Shown here: positions 1-24,713 of the stretch, in pieces
Layout: the number at the start of each line of letters is the position of its first letter
Position numbering within the stretch: position 1 is the stretch's first letter
Assembly: GCA_947504725.1 (NCBI GenBank)
Contig: CANNHN010000013.1
Location: 1 to 64,000 of the forward strand
Direction: 5' to 3'
Origin: Bacteroidota bacterium
GTDB taxonomy: Bacteria; Bacteroidota; Bacteroidia; 2-12-FULL-35-15
DNA length: 64,000 bases
Notes under the pieces: generated by a model
What the model was told of the DNA's origin: nothing
What the model saw: only the letters and a program-made list of their open reading frames with translations
The model's database searches: none
Translations under genes and position numbers: made by a program

Positions 1-128
1 AAAGAGAACGAATAAAACAAAATTGTATTAGGAGCAGAAAAATGGAATACGAAAAATTAAAATTGAAAAACAAAAAAAATAACTTAGCTTTGAATTAACA
101 ATAAACACTCCTTAATGAAAAGTTCAAA

Positions 129-518
129 TTACTTTGAAGACATACACTTAGAAAGAAATGTGTTCAACTCTTTTCTTAATTCATTAAATATTTTATCAAA
201 AGTTTCAATTTTTTCATTTTCATCTTTGTGAGCTGGAAATTTTCTGTGGTCAACTGCTGTTTCGTTTTTATTTACTTCCTTCTCTAATGCTTGTTCATGC
301 AATTTAATTTCATGAGAAATAATATCAATTTGCTCTTTTTGTATGATAAATTGATTTTGAAAATGTTCTACATTCGCTAATATTTCCTTAGCGGAATTTT
401 TTTGTGCAATTTCAGAAATTCTGTTTTGCATGATTACTAACTCATCTTTGTAAAAATTTAAGTTATTTAACCACTGTTTGTGTTCTTCATGTAACTGATA
501 TAAACCTTTCGTTTCCAT
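129..518 (-). CDS. Hypothetical coiled-coil protein, 129 aa
   Basis: I do not recognise a family. The protein is hydrophilic, has no signal peptide or membrane segment, and is rich in Lys, Glu and Gln with long helical stretches (about residues 20-85), which suggests a cytoplasmic coiled coil. A His-Arg-Lys-Phe-Pro-Ala-His segment near residues 91-97 interrupts the helix. It stands alone: about 200 bases separate it from the tRNA-like sequence at 724, and nothing complete lies downstream before the window edge. Frame and start (ATG at 518) look sound, but function is unknown. Confidence 0.6.
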   Translation of the reverse strand: METKGLYQLHEEHKQWLNNLNFYKDELVIMQNRISEIAQKNSAKEILANVEHFQNQFIIQKEQIDIISHEIKLHEQALEKEVNKNETAVDHRKFPAHKDENEKIETFDKIFNELRKELNTFLSKCMSSK

Positions 519-723
519 AATTTTTGTTTTAATTTAATTATAATACAAAGCTATAGTGATATTGCCCCATTAATTATGATTAATATCCATTACGGAAAGT
601 GATTTTGGTCATGTTTTGATGAATAATTTGAATGTTTTAGGCAATAAACAAACGTCTTATTGAAAGAAGCTGATAAAACTGAGCAGTCTAGAATGGAATC
701 AACTGATGAATTGAGAATATGTG

Positions 724-774
724 GTGACCCCATTTGGATTCGAACCAAAGGCCTATCCCGTTAGCTAACGGGAT
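724..774 (-). pseudogene. Truncated tRNA-Arg copy with a palindromic anticodon arm
   Basis: Positions 724-755 repeat 1054-1085 exactly (32 bases), covering the acceptor 3' strand and T arm of tRNA-Arg. Where the anticodon arm should follow there is a perfect 20-base palindrome (755-774), giving a 5-bp stem with a 10-base self-pairing loop instead of 7. The 5' acceptor strand is absent, so it cannot be a working tRNA. The GIY-YIG gene ends inside the palindrome, its TAG stop lying at 765-767. Confidence 0.75.
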
Positions 775-1025
775 TGCTCAATTAGCATTGCAATTAACCA
801 CTCAATATATTTTCTGCTTTTTTTTGCTTTTATTTCTCTTTCTCTCCTTATAGCTAGCAGTTCGGTTTCAAGTTTTTCAAAATATACTAATTTCCAAGGT
901 AGTCCTTTACTGGTAAATGTTTCACACCCTTGATTATGAAGGGTCAGGCGGTCTTCAATGTTTTTTGAATATCCGACATAGTATTTATTTATTTTTTCTG
1001 AGAAAAGAATGTAGACAAAAAACAT
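765..1025 (-). CDS. Small GIY-YIG nuclease family protein
   Basis: A single-domain GIY-YIG protein of about 86 aa. The VYIL and YYVGYSKNIEDRL segments near the N-terminus correspond to the GIY and YIG parts of the catalytic sheet, followed by the conserved Arg helix and the W-KLVYFE strand; a conserved Glu lies in the RREREIKAKKSRKYIEWL segment. This is the YhbQ/UvrC-N family, which cuts one DNA strand. I start at ATG 1025, since upstream codons run into the tRNA terminator. The gene lies between tRNA-Arg and a duplicated tRNA-Arg 3' end, suggesting a small mobile or homing cassette. Length matches stand-alone Bacteroidota members. Confidence 0.85.
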   Translation of the reverse strand: MFFVYILFSEKINKYYVGYSKNIEDRLTLHNQGCETFTSKGLPWKLVYFEKLETELLAIRREREIKAKKSRKYIEWLIAMLIEQSR

Positions 1026-1030
1026 AATAA

Positions 1031-1054
1031 AAAAAGCCACTGGTGGTGGCTTTG
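1031..1054 (-). terminator. Intrinsic terminator after the tRNA cluster
   Basis: On the minus strand a 6-bp stem (AGCCAC/GTGGCT, 1035-1051) with a 5-base loop is followed by a run of T directly after tRNA-Arg. The T-run leads straight into the GIY-YIG start codon at 1025, so that gene probably depends on read-through or its own promoter. Confidence 0.6.
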
Positions 1055-1128
1055 TGACCCCATTTGGATTCGAACCAAAGGCCTACGGTTTAGAAAACCG
1101 TTGCTCTATCCAGCTGAGCTATGGGGTC
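1055..1128 (-). tRNA. tRNA-Arg (TCT)
   Basis: A full cloverleaf of 74 bases: acceptor stem GACCCCA/TGGGGTC with discriminator A, D arm, anticodon loop TTTCTAA giving TCT for AGA codons, and a T arm with GGTTCGAATCC. CCA is not encoded. It is the third of three tRNA genes on this strand. Its last 31 bases (1055-1085) recur at 725-755. Confidence 0.96.
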
Positions 1129-1207
1129 AATTAATATGAAAAAAAAAGGTTAACGATGAATATGTTATAAGTAAGATATAACAAATAACCATTAACCATT
1201 TATTTTG

Positions 1208-1281
1208 TCGGGGCGGCAAGACTCGAACTTGCGACCTCCTGGTCCCAAACCAGGCGCGATAACCAACTACGCTACGCCCCG
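1208..1281 (-). tRNA. tRNA-Pro (TGG)
   Basis: 74 bases with acceptor stem CGGGGCG/CGCCCCG, discriminator A, and anticodon loop TTTGGGA giving TGG. It lies between tRNA-Ser and tRNA-Arg on the same strand. A TACATTTG box sits 30 bases upstream (1311-1318). Confidence 0.96.
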
Positions 1282-1310
1282 AACTATTATAAAGAACTTA
1301 AAAGCGGATG

Positions 1311-1318
1311 CAAATGTA
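1311..1318 (-). promoter_or_regulatory. -7 box upstream of tRNA-Pro
   Basis: TACATTTG on the minus strand matches the Bacteroidota -7 consensus TAnnTTTG. A TTTG lies 22 bases upstream (1341-1344), slightly beyond the usual 19. The adjacent tRNA-Ser promoter uses the same -7 octamer. Confidence 0.5.
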
Positions 1319-1374
1319 CTATTATTTTTAATCTACCAAGCAAAAAAATAGCTTTTTGTTGCTCAGTCTAGTGG

Positions 1375-1463
1375 CGGAGAGAGAGGGATTCGAACCCTCG
1401 GTACCGGTTTCCCAGTACGACAGTTTAGCAAACTGTTCCTTTCGGCCACTCAGGCATCTCTCC
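1375..1463 (-). tRNA. tRNA-Ser (GCT)
   Basis: A class II tRNA of 89 bases with a long variable arm, acceptor stem GGAGAGA/TCTCTCC, discriminator G, and anticodon loop TTGCTAA giving GCT. It is the first gene of the minus-strand tRNA cluster. Confidence 0.96.
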
Positions 1464-1484
1464 ATACCCTTTTTCAAGGGGATG

Positions 1485-1515
1485 CAAATGTAAAAAAAAG
1501 ATTTCCCATTGCAAA
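1485..1515 (-). promoter_or_regulatory. Consensus Bacteroidota promoter for the tRNA cluster
   Basis: On the minus strand TTTG (1512-1515), then exactly 19 bases, then TACATTTG (1485-1492). This is a perfect match to TTTG-N19-TAnnTTTG used by the Bacteroidota primary sigma factor. The predicted start lies about 15 bases before the tRNA-Ser 5' end at 1463. Confidence 0.75.
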
Positions 1516-1601
1516 ACAAAATTCCATTATTCCACTCCTTATTATCCTGTCAATTTTGGGTATTCTACTCATATTTTAATAGAATTATCCCTTTCGAATG
1601 C

Positions 1602-1609
1602 TATATTTG
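1602..1609 (+). promoter_or_regulatory. -7 box before the solute-binding protein gene
   Basis: TATATTTG fits the Bacteroidota -7 consensus and would start transcription about 26 bases before the ATG at 1642. No TTTG is found at the expected -33 spacing, so support is partial. Confidence 0.4.
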
Positions 1610-1641
1610 TAATGGAATAATTAGTACAAATCTAGCAGTAT

Positions 1642-3522
1642 ATGTTTACCAATAAAAGGCTATTCTTCTTGCTCATTAACTCTTTTGCTGTTTTTTTTAC
1701 AGCCTGCGGTGATGGGGAATCATCCGAAACTAAAACAAACGAACATAGCAATAATATTTCTGCAGATCAAACGAAGTTTATAGAAATTGAAGATGCTTCT
1801 AGTTTTTTGCCAACTTGGTCGAAAGAGAATGTTCTTGTTTATAATGTTATAGGTGAACCCGATGAAATGCACCCTACCAATGGAATAATGGTTTATCGTG
1901 GCGAAATTATGGGATACACGCAAGTGTACTTGATTGGGACAGATTTTCAAACATTGACTTTACGACCTATTGCTGTTAAAGCTATGCCAACCATTTCTGA
2001 AAATGGGAAAGAATATACCTATGAAGTTCGTAATGACATAAAATTTGATGATGGCAGTATATTGTCTGTAGAAGACATCGTTTATACATATAAAGCTAAT
2101 AAATGCCCATTAACCAATAACCCAAGTGCAAAATCATATTTGGAAAATATGCTGGATATTGTAGTAGACAAGAACAATCCGAATGTATTTACTATTATTA
2201 TGAAAGAGAAATACATTCAAAATATTAGTTTGTTTAATGAATTTCCAATTATGCAACGTAGTTTTTTTGATCCTAAAAATGTACTTTCGAAATACACTTT
2301 TGCTCAATTTAACGACAAGAATTTTAAAGCTGAAGGCTTCAAAGATTTAAACGATTGGGCTACGGAGTTTAATAGTGCGAAATACAGTCGCGATCCAAAA
2401 TTTACTGTAGGAGCAGGTCCCTACAGAATGGAGAAATGGGAGGCTGGACAAAGTATAACTTTAGTTAAAAAAGAAAATCATTGGACAAAAGAAACTGACA
2501 AAATGTATTACACTTCTTTTCCTGATAAAATTATTTTCAAATTAAACAAAGAACCAAACTCTCAAATGCTTGAATTTAAAGCTCAAACATTTGATGCTTC
2601 TACATCCATGTCAACTAAAACAGTTATAGAACTGCAATCGGATAGTAACTTTAATGCGAATTATAATTCACGCTTTACGGATACATACAATTATGGATAC
2701 ATTGCCATGAATATGAAACCTGATGGTGTTAAAAATAAAAAATTGTTTGTCGATAAAAAAGTAAGAAGAGCAATGGCTTTGCTTGCTCCATTAGATGAAA
2801 TGAATCGTATACAAAACAAAGGAAAAAACAAACGTGTAACCGGACCCGTTTCGTTTTTGAAACAAGAATACAATACTGATTTGAAATTAATTCCATTGGA
2901 TGTTGAAGCAGCAAAAAAAATGTTGGATGAGGCTGGGTGGAAAGATAGCGATGGAGATAATATCCGTGATAAAATGATAGATGGTGAAAAAGTAAAAATG
3001 GAATTTATGTTGGGCTATTTCAGTACTTCCCCTGAATGGAAAGAGTTGGCTAAAATGATTTCAGAACAAATGTATAAAGCAGGTGTTGTTGCTATTCTCA
3101 ATCCACTCGATCCTTCAGTTATGGTTGAGCAGGCTTCCAATCATAATTTTGATATGTTTATTGCTTCTTGGTCTGGAAATGTTTTTCCTGAAGATTATAC
3201 GCAGCTTTGGCATTCATCTTCTTGGGCTTCAAAAGGTTCAAACTTTACAGGTTTTGGGAATGCAGAATCGGATGCTTTGATAGATTCAATAAAATATACA
3301 CTCGACCCATCTATATCAGTTCCTATGCTGAAACGCTTTCAAGCAATCGTTTATGATGAACAACCTTATATATTTATGTTCGCTGGTGTAAGAAGAAATG
3401 TTATTCATAAACGATTTGGAAATCAAGAAATGTATTTCGAGCGCCCAGGAGTTTGGTTAAGTAATCTTCGCTTATTATCTGGTGATGGTACTTCAATGAA
3501 AGTTTCTGCAGATCCAAATTAA
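1642..3522 (+). CDS. Family-5 (peptide-type) ABC solute-binding lipoprotein
   Basis: A 626-aa extracytoplasmic binding protein of the OppA/DppA family (SBP_bac_5), expected to capture peptides or similar solutes for ABC import. A lipobox at residues 19-22 (FTAC) follows a hydrophobic signal, so Cys22 should be lipidated. Family hallmarks are visible: the domain around ISENGKEYTYEVRNDIKFDDG, the VGAGPYRMEKWEAGQSITLVKKE segment, and the C-terminal region before GFGNAESDALID. It is long for the family (usually 500-560 aa). It leads an apparent operon with the two permeases at 3576 and 5039; no ATPase gene is present, so the substrate and energising subunits must be inferred or come from elsewhere. 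Confidence 0.9.
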   Translation: MFTNKRLFFLLINSFAVFFTACGDGESSETKTNEHSNNISADQTKFIEIEDASSFLPTWSKENVLVYNVIGEPDEMHPTNGIMVYRGEIMGYTQVYLIGTDFQTLTLRPIAVKAMPTISENGKEYTYEVRNDIKFDDGSILSVEDIVYTYKANKCPLTNNPSAKSYLENMLDIVVDKNNPNVFTIIMKEKYIQNISLFNEFPIMQRSFFDPKNVLSKYTFAQFNDKNFKAEGFKDLNDWATEFNSAKYSRDPKFTVGAGPYRMEKWEAGQSITLVKKENHWTKETDKMYYTSFPDKIIFKLNKEPNSQMLEFKAQTFDASTSMSTKTVIELQSDSNFNANYNSRFTDTYNYGYIAMNMKPDGVKNKKLFVDKKVRRAMALLAPLDEMNRIQNKGKNKRVTGPVSFLKQEYNTDLKLIPLDVEAAKKMLDEAGWKDSDGDNIRDKMIDGEKVKMEFMLGYFSTSPEWKELAKMISEQMYKAGVVAILNPLDPSVMVEQASNHNFDMFIASWSGNVFPEDYTQLWHSSSWASKGSNFTGFGNAESDALIDSIKYTLDPSISVPMLKRFQAIVYDEQPYIFMFAGVRRNVIHKRFGNQEMYFERPGVWLSNLRLLSGDGTSMKVSADPN

Positions 3523-24697: not shown

Positions 24698-24713
24698 TCC
24701 CGAACATACGGGA
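24698..24713. repeat. TCCCG-N6-CGGGA inverted repeat before moxR
   Basis: A 5-bp GC-rich stem with the loop AACATA, in otherwise AT-rich DNA 18 bases before the MoxR start. Similar hairpins occur at 755-774 and 36172-36186. Confidence 0.45.

Follow-up and report, generated by a model that had tools for sequence, protein, structure and literature searches.

A probable homing cassette for bacterial tRNA genes, with a single GIY-YIG nuclease gene in about 0.3 kb

The window, the whole 64,000-nt stretch of Bacteroidota DNA analysed here, contains a small nuclease gene lodged between an intact tRNA-Arg(TCT) and a second, broken copy of the same tRNA. Read along the minus strand, the order is tRNA-Pro, tRNA-Arg(TCT), a terminator-like hairpin, a GIY-YIG open reading frame, a palindrome and a 32-nt copy of the tRNA-Arg 3' end, with the following features:

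1207-1463, minus strand: tRNA-Pro(TGG) and tRNA-Ser(GCT), conserved neighbours that served to locate empty sites
1054-1128, minus strand: tRNA-Arg(TCT), the intact upstream copy (ARAGORN; Rfam RF00005, 71.7 bits), the same in the empty genomes G009 and G027
1029-1053, minus strand: hairpin of terminator type, ending in a T run and separating tRNA from nuclease gene, its stem resembling that at a locus of G009 (L063)
765-1025, minus strand: single-domain GIY-YIG nuclease gene, 86 aa from ATG (PF01541, E 5e-15; AlphaFold pLDDT 92.8)
774-779, minus strand: short left arm GAGCAA, equal to tRNA nt 23-28 and overlapping the 3' end of the nuclease gene
756-773, no strand assigned: palindrome TCCCGTTAGCTAACGGGA in place of tRNA nt 29-43 (anticodon arm), a predicted DNA hairpin
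724-755, minus strand: right arm, an exact 32-nt copy of tRNA-Arg nt 44-75 (the broken second copy)

The 32-nt direct repeat (724-755 and 1054-1085) is exact and has a spacing of 330, and the sole gene detected in this 330-bp unit encodes the GIY-YIG protein; there is no tyrosine or serine integrase gene. These elements, together with the terminator hairpin, the palindrome and the pairing of an intact upstream tRNA-Arg with a broken second copy, had been described at 724-1128 in an initial annotation made from the DNA letters, and all were confirmed. The broken copy proved to include nt 23-28 as well: it reads nt 23-28, palindrome, nt 44-75, and because GAGCAA stands beyond the palindrome, the latter replaces nt 29-43, that is, 15 nt of the anticodon arm. 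Among relatives sharing the window layout this left arm is mostly 5-16 nt long. The annotation had also placed the break at the tRNA 3' end, which has to be corrected, as the break is internal to the tRNA, clade-specific and marked by the palindrome. The nuclease gene extends into the broken tRNA copy, and its stop codon falls within the palindrome.

Matches to TCCCG-N2-12-CGGGA number two in the window versus 0.04 expected; the second (TCCCGAACATACGGGA, 24698-24713) lies far from any tRNA. In G009 the empty tRNA-Arg has a terminator of similar stem behind it, so the upstream tRNA-Arg and terminator of the window look native, and the hairpin at 1029-1053 is probably the native tRNA terminator. 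Over window positions 1-2000 no intron family in Rfam matched at E<=0.1, and the tRNA is uninterrupted, which rules out a group I intron homing endonuclease.

Empty tRNA-Arg(TCT) sites, which the annotation had proposed to look for in related genomes, do exist. The tRNA-Arg of G009 and G027, whose neighbouring transporter shows 83-85% identity, matches that of the window at 100% and has no nuclease gene after it; several further genomes of the genus are likewise empty. Relatives lose synteny with the window locus beyond the tRNA cluster, which precluded an exact empty site with both flanks there, and a pair with two conserved flanks was taken instead at tRNA-Pro in the genomes G223 and G764. 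At trxB-tRNA-Pro(TGG)-prolyl peptidase the cassette is present in G223 and absent from G764, with flanks 86-92% identical, and the cassette gene is missing from 28 of the 30 fetched loci that carry this tRNA-Pro. The duplicated stretch in G223 consists of the tRNA 3' half plus a terminator. At the empty tRNA-Pro site of G764 (L264, about 1340-1415) the tRNA and terminator are inverted between otherwise collinear flanks. At Arg and Pro alike, no sequence difference separates the intact tRNA next to a cassette from its counterpart at empty sites, which leaves unsupported a simple homing model with a donor that resists its own enzyme through sequence change. Because the sample holds one genome per species, gain or loss inside a species is not seen.

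Searching with the window protein alone, we found a tRNA beside the gene at 21 of the 29 loci that other members of the genus contributed (sample of 36 genomes) and at 21 of 24 loci in named genomes; by our own estimate chance would give about 2%. The named genomes comprise Bacteroidota, Ignavibacteria and Melioribacteraceae, Neomarinimicrobiota, Desulfobacteraceae and Patescibacteria. Profile A1 detects such genes (E<=1e-22) in 80/295 genomes of the class and 116/395 of the phylum; it was built from tRNA-associated members, so that its high-scoring group is enriched by design, a bias of which the two counts from the window protein alone are free. Across fetched loci, a tRNA lies within 600 bp of 184 of 240 non-redundant genes, covering 25 tRNA species and invariably on the same strand (184/184). 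Among relatives scoring 50-60 bits, just 3 of 16 have a tRNA this close. The cassette is thus neither always present at the window locus nor confined to one tRNA, the two outcomes that the annotation had named as fatal to a mobile-unit reading, and its spread over about 25 tRNA species, within Bacteroidota and outside it, bears out the annotation's suggestion to look at other tRNAs.

An exact copy of at least 14 nt of the local tRNA recurs elsewhere within 700 bp for 163 of these 184 genes, with none in 21; shuffled tRNAs gave no such copy, their longest match being 11 nt. The loci fall into two layouts, one with the intact tRNA upstream and the broken copy downstream as in the window, the other its mirror image, in which the nearest intact tRNA is downstream and the broken piece usually upstream (about a quarter of genes). 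The duplicated stretch is mostly 17-53 nt, sometimes includes the terminator, and is often the 5' part of the tRNA. At L131, L140 and L169, palindrome-interrupted tRNA pieces flank the intact tRNA on both sides, which suggests several successive insertions at one locus. L060 (2808-2975) carries two tandem tRNA-Lys-like copies, labelled tRNA-??? by ARAGORN, in which a TCCCG..CGGGA hairpin stands in for the anticodon arm; a truncated GIY-YIG gene comes after them.

The units can also be amplified in tandem. Ten 457-bp units, 99% identical, follow an intact tRNA-Met in G140, and five 315-bp units follow an intact tRNA-Asp in G575, each consisting of a tRNA 3' piece, terminator, nuclease gene, short tRNA arm and palindrome. 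The window protein had no match at E<=1e-3 in 50,697 phage records, no relatives were found in viral contigs, and plasmid records gave one weak match. For one relative (L057) there was a weak match to a PHROG homing endonuclease.

The palindrome at the break is a general feature of these loci. An arrangement of tRNA arm, palindrome and tRNA arm occurs in 99 of 157 loci, about 6 of which score a natural tRNA arm as palindrome, and 83 different palindromes are represented, the commonest type being TCCCG...CGGGA. Break sites fall per tRNA, in the anticodon arm, in the T arm, or after nt 22 or 38: the gap spans nt 27-30|43-46 in Arg(TCT), Ala, Val, Lys and Pro, 50|59 or 51|60 in Asp and 37-38|48-49 in Met, and at 22|23 in Arg(TCG) the palindrome is a pure insertion. 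Among 40 distinct TCCCG...CGGGA types, pair 6 is complementary in 40/40 and pair 7 in 35/40, with several pair types, figures somewhat inflated by a detector that favours long stems. As the inner pairs stay complementary with several pair types, the hairpin is conserved while its sequence changes. The genome from which the window comes holds 103 TCCCG...CGGGA palindromes versus 1 in a reversed control, and many of these sit in REPs of CGTC type. The solitary ones occur often in REPs, and none was found in tRNA pieces. The palindrome of the window cassette has no CGTC tag.

The protein belongs to the GIY-YIG superfamily by its conserved Y, Y-x-G, R, H, E and K positions, of which Y5, Y16 and G18 are invariant and R26, H30, E62 and K66 nearly so, and the AlphaFold model (pLDDT 92.8) is a confident GIY-YIG fold. 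The nearest solved folds are UPF0213 and Slx1, then the I-TevI catalytic domain. Lacking a separate DNA-binding domain, the window nuclease resembles Slx1 and UPF0213 at least as much as I-TevI. Nuclease clades follow the tRNA more than the host, and a tRNA is kept across host families: the nuclease tree requires 58 changes of tRNA identity versus 116.5 when shuffled (minimum 109), and 96 changes of host family versus 118.6. Jumps between tRNAs occur, such as Val-Glu at 78% protein identity and Arg-Val at 73%, and after a jump the duplicated piece corresponds to the new tRNA. Two adjacent genes at L235, 93% identical and nearest to tRNA-Phe and tRNA-Pro, represent a possible recent tRNA switch. 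Median dN/dS over 60 usable pairs is 0.12, indicating strong purifying selection.

The other four small GIY-YIG genes of the same genome (L001 1391-1787, L002, L005 and L006) lie between or among REP-like repeats, namely inverted GTCATCCCGTG..CACGGGAT, CCTGAGCGGAGTCGAAGGG, arrays of TTTCGACCGAAGCGGAGAAAT, and CGTCATTGCGAG..GGCAATCTC. With REPs around them and no tRNA nearby, they were rejected as further tRNA cassettes. Inverted flanking repeats of at least 14 nt, for example CGTCATCCCGTGCCACGACACGGGATCT, accompany 14 of 23 lower-scoring relatives. Of 12 fetched GIY-YIG genes of plasmid records, seven (from Azospirillum, Rhizobium, two Shinella, Novosphingobium, Sphingobium and Aeromonas) are framed within 150 bp by two outward-facing CGTC-tagged hairpins; control windows taken from three 40-kb stretches of three of these records gave 0 in 2358. 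The query for this search was a typical proteobacterial GIY-YIG sequence, and the evidence lies in the matches and not in the query. Proteobacterial GIY-YIG genes framed in this way stand at L293, L294, L295, L298, L299, L301 and L304, and the L293 unit sits between sufB and sufC. CGTC REPs were reported in 2013 without a dedicated transposase (PMC3733652), and by their sequence context these genes are candidates for the missing partner. The window cassette itself lacks the outward tagged hairpins on both sides that distinguish a CGTC REP unit, and it differs from a REP/RAYT REPtron in that its gene is GIY-YIG and its relatives' hairpins are CGTC, not GTAG.

Given the sister GIY-YIG genes of Bacteroidota and Proteobacteria that stand between outward-facing CGTC REPs, and the palindromes of the window genome, the tRNA cassettes look like a branch of a nuclease-plus-hairpin family, although this link is correlative. 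A broader proposal, which we find plausible while leaning slightly against it, is that single-domain GIY-YIG nucleases and short hairpins form a general minimal mobile system of bacteria parallel to RAYT/REP, in which one branch would spread CGTC REPs and another would have taken tRNA genes as its hairpin targets and become tRNA-specific cassettes.

We consider it likely that the unit, about 0.3 kb long, is selfish and autonomous and homes on tRNA genes by means of its one GIY-YIG gene, with clades each specific for one or for similar tRNAs. What the loci show is tRNA specificity, one site both with and without the cassette, a duplicated local tRNA half, a palindrome where the second copy is broken, amplification and purifying selection. 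As in free-standing homing endonucleases, the gene stands beside its target, the host gene is intact, relatives have empty sites, and target specificity is held across hosts (58 versus 116.5 changes). The annotation's picture of a tiny integrase-less mobile unit that targets tRNA genes and leaves one tRNA intact gains support from the empty sites and from the roughly 25 tRNA species. We infer that the nuclease would cut or nick the tRNA gene, or the palindrome hairpin, where the palindrome now sits, and that recombinational repair would copy the cassette between the two tRNA arms; one working tRNA would stay, and the palindrome-broken copy would no longer be a target. Tandem arrays could arise by repeated rounds or by unequal exchange. 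Often the native terminator lies within the duplicated stretch, and a local duplication or an insertion by single crossover would explain this as well as classical homing would. GIY-YIG cuts leave overhangs of a few bases, against duplications of mostly 17-53 nt and sometimes a terminator, so that a plain target-site duplication by staggered cut was rejected.

The main rival is a structure-selective nuclease acting on the hairpin, a REP-like element whose GIY-YIG protein would recognise the palindrome and not the intact tRNA, much as RAYT acts on REPs. The donor would be cut at the palindrome, tRNA genes would be used since they too form hairpins, and the tRNA arms would supply homology for repair elsewhere. 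This would account for palindromes that vary yet stay palindromic (40 types; pair 6 in 40/40, pair 7 in 35/40), for their abundance in the window genome (103 versus 1), for relatives away from tRNAs that lie between inverted REPs (14/23) or CGTC hairpins (7/12 versus 0/2358), and for an intact tRNA without any resistance change; Slx1, moreover, is structure-selective. We nevertheless judge it unlikely: the palindromes of tRNA cassettes carry no CGTC tag, their tRNA-specific position fits a tRNA target site better, and GIY-YIG enzymes form no covalent intermediate, which makes RAYT chemistry impossible.

Homing on tRNA genes also has to be set against a domesticated host function in tRNA processing or control, with selection holding the gene next to its tRNA. 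The dN/dS of about 0.12 and the invariant co-orientation with the tRNA would suit such a role, which patchy presence (80/295 genomes of the class, 116/395 of the phylum), sites that are empty, the variety of tRNA types, tandem amplification and the decay of some copies make quite improbable. That the unit is a remnant or satellite of an integrase element with tRNA attachment sites, carrying the nuclease gene as cargo, is more improbable still: integration at a tRNA classically leaves an intact tRNA and a second copy of its 3' part, but here the break points are internal and clade-specific, the copied piece is often 5', the GIY-YIG gene is the only gene, tRNA type tracks the nuclease tree, and nuclease units form tandem arrays. 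Several loci come from metagenome bins, as an artefact of assembly or annotation, or a chance repeat, might predict; we consider this negligible, as arrays and cassettes also turn up in genomes that form one contig (G575, G459, G223) and across unrelated phyla, and the controls gave no matches.

If the cassette reading is true, a unit of one gene in about 0.3 kb would rank with the smallest autonomous mobile elements of bacteria, attacking essential, highly conserved genes yet leaving one working copy. Between about a quarter and a third of the Bacteroidota-type genomes sampled carry cassettes, as do genomes of several other phyla; the genes are probably listed under the plain names 'GIY-YIG nuclease' or 'excinuclease'. 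For about 25 tRNA targets they supply matching, naturally occurring nucleases. With the REP-framed genes, the question of which enzyme, if any, mobilises CGTC REPs becomes open to direct test (PMC3733652).

Several known systems share parts of this design. Integrase islands in tRNA genes also leave an intact tRNA and a partial copy, whereas the cassette has no integrase, measures about 0.3 kb and breaks inside the tRNA. UPF0213 and Slx1 proteins are the nearest solved relatives by both sequence and fold; Slx1 works together with Slx4, and we know of no link of either to tRNA-gene mobility. In openly licensed articles we found no text joining GIY-YIG with tRNA cassettes of bacterial chromosomes or with REPs, which does not in itself prove novelty. 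REPtrons likewise tie a nuclease gene to high-copy palindromes, but RAYTs are tyrosine (IS200-type) transposases and the partner here is GIY-YIG (PMC3733652, PMC2817692). A related layout with C-terminal gene duplications is found in mobile ORFs of fungal mitochondria (Allomyces atp6; Glomus atp6, atp9, cox2 and nad3), where a free-standing endonuclease ORF lies between the rebuilt host gene and its displaced native 3' part; there the targets are organelle protein genes, the new end is foreign and diverged and no palindrome is present (PMC3630166), whereas the cassette targets a bacterial tRNA gene and its copies are mostly identical.

The closest known system is phage SegB. Passages of the SegB reports (PMC13096335, Nat Commun 2026; PMC2988022) present the T4/T6 enzyme as a free-standing GIY-YIG homing endonuclease that cuts inside tRNA genes and, like the cassette gene, adjoins tRNA genes of many isotypes. 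SegB is phage-borne, whereas the window protein has no counterpart in the 50,697 phage records, and these passages describe neither a palindrome-interrupted second tRNA copy nor a pattern of one clade for one tRNA (PMC13096335; PMC2988022). The SegB authors raise for their own enzyme a question similar to that of how the host of a cassette avoids self-cutting, and they describe tandem amplification of tRNA-segB units, which has its counterpart in the tandem units here and is mediated by microhomology that the 5' end of the tRNA shares with the 3' end of segB (PMC13096335; PMC2988022).
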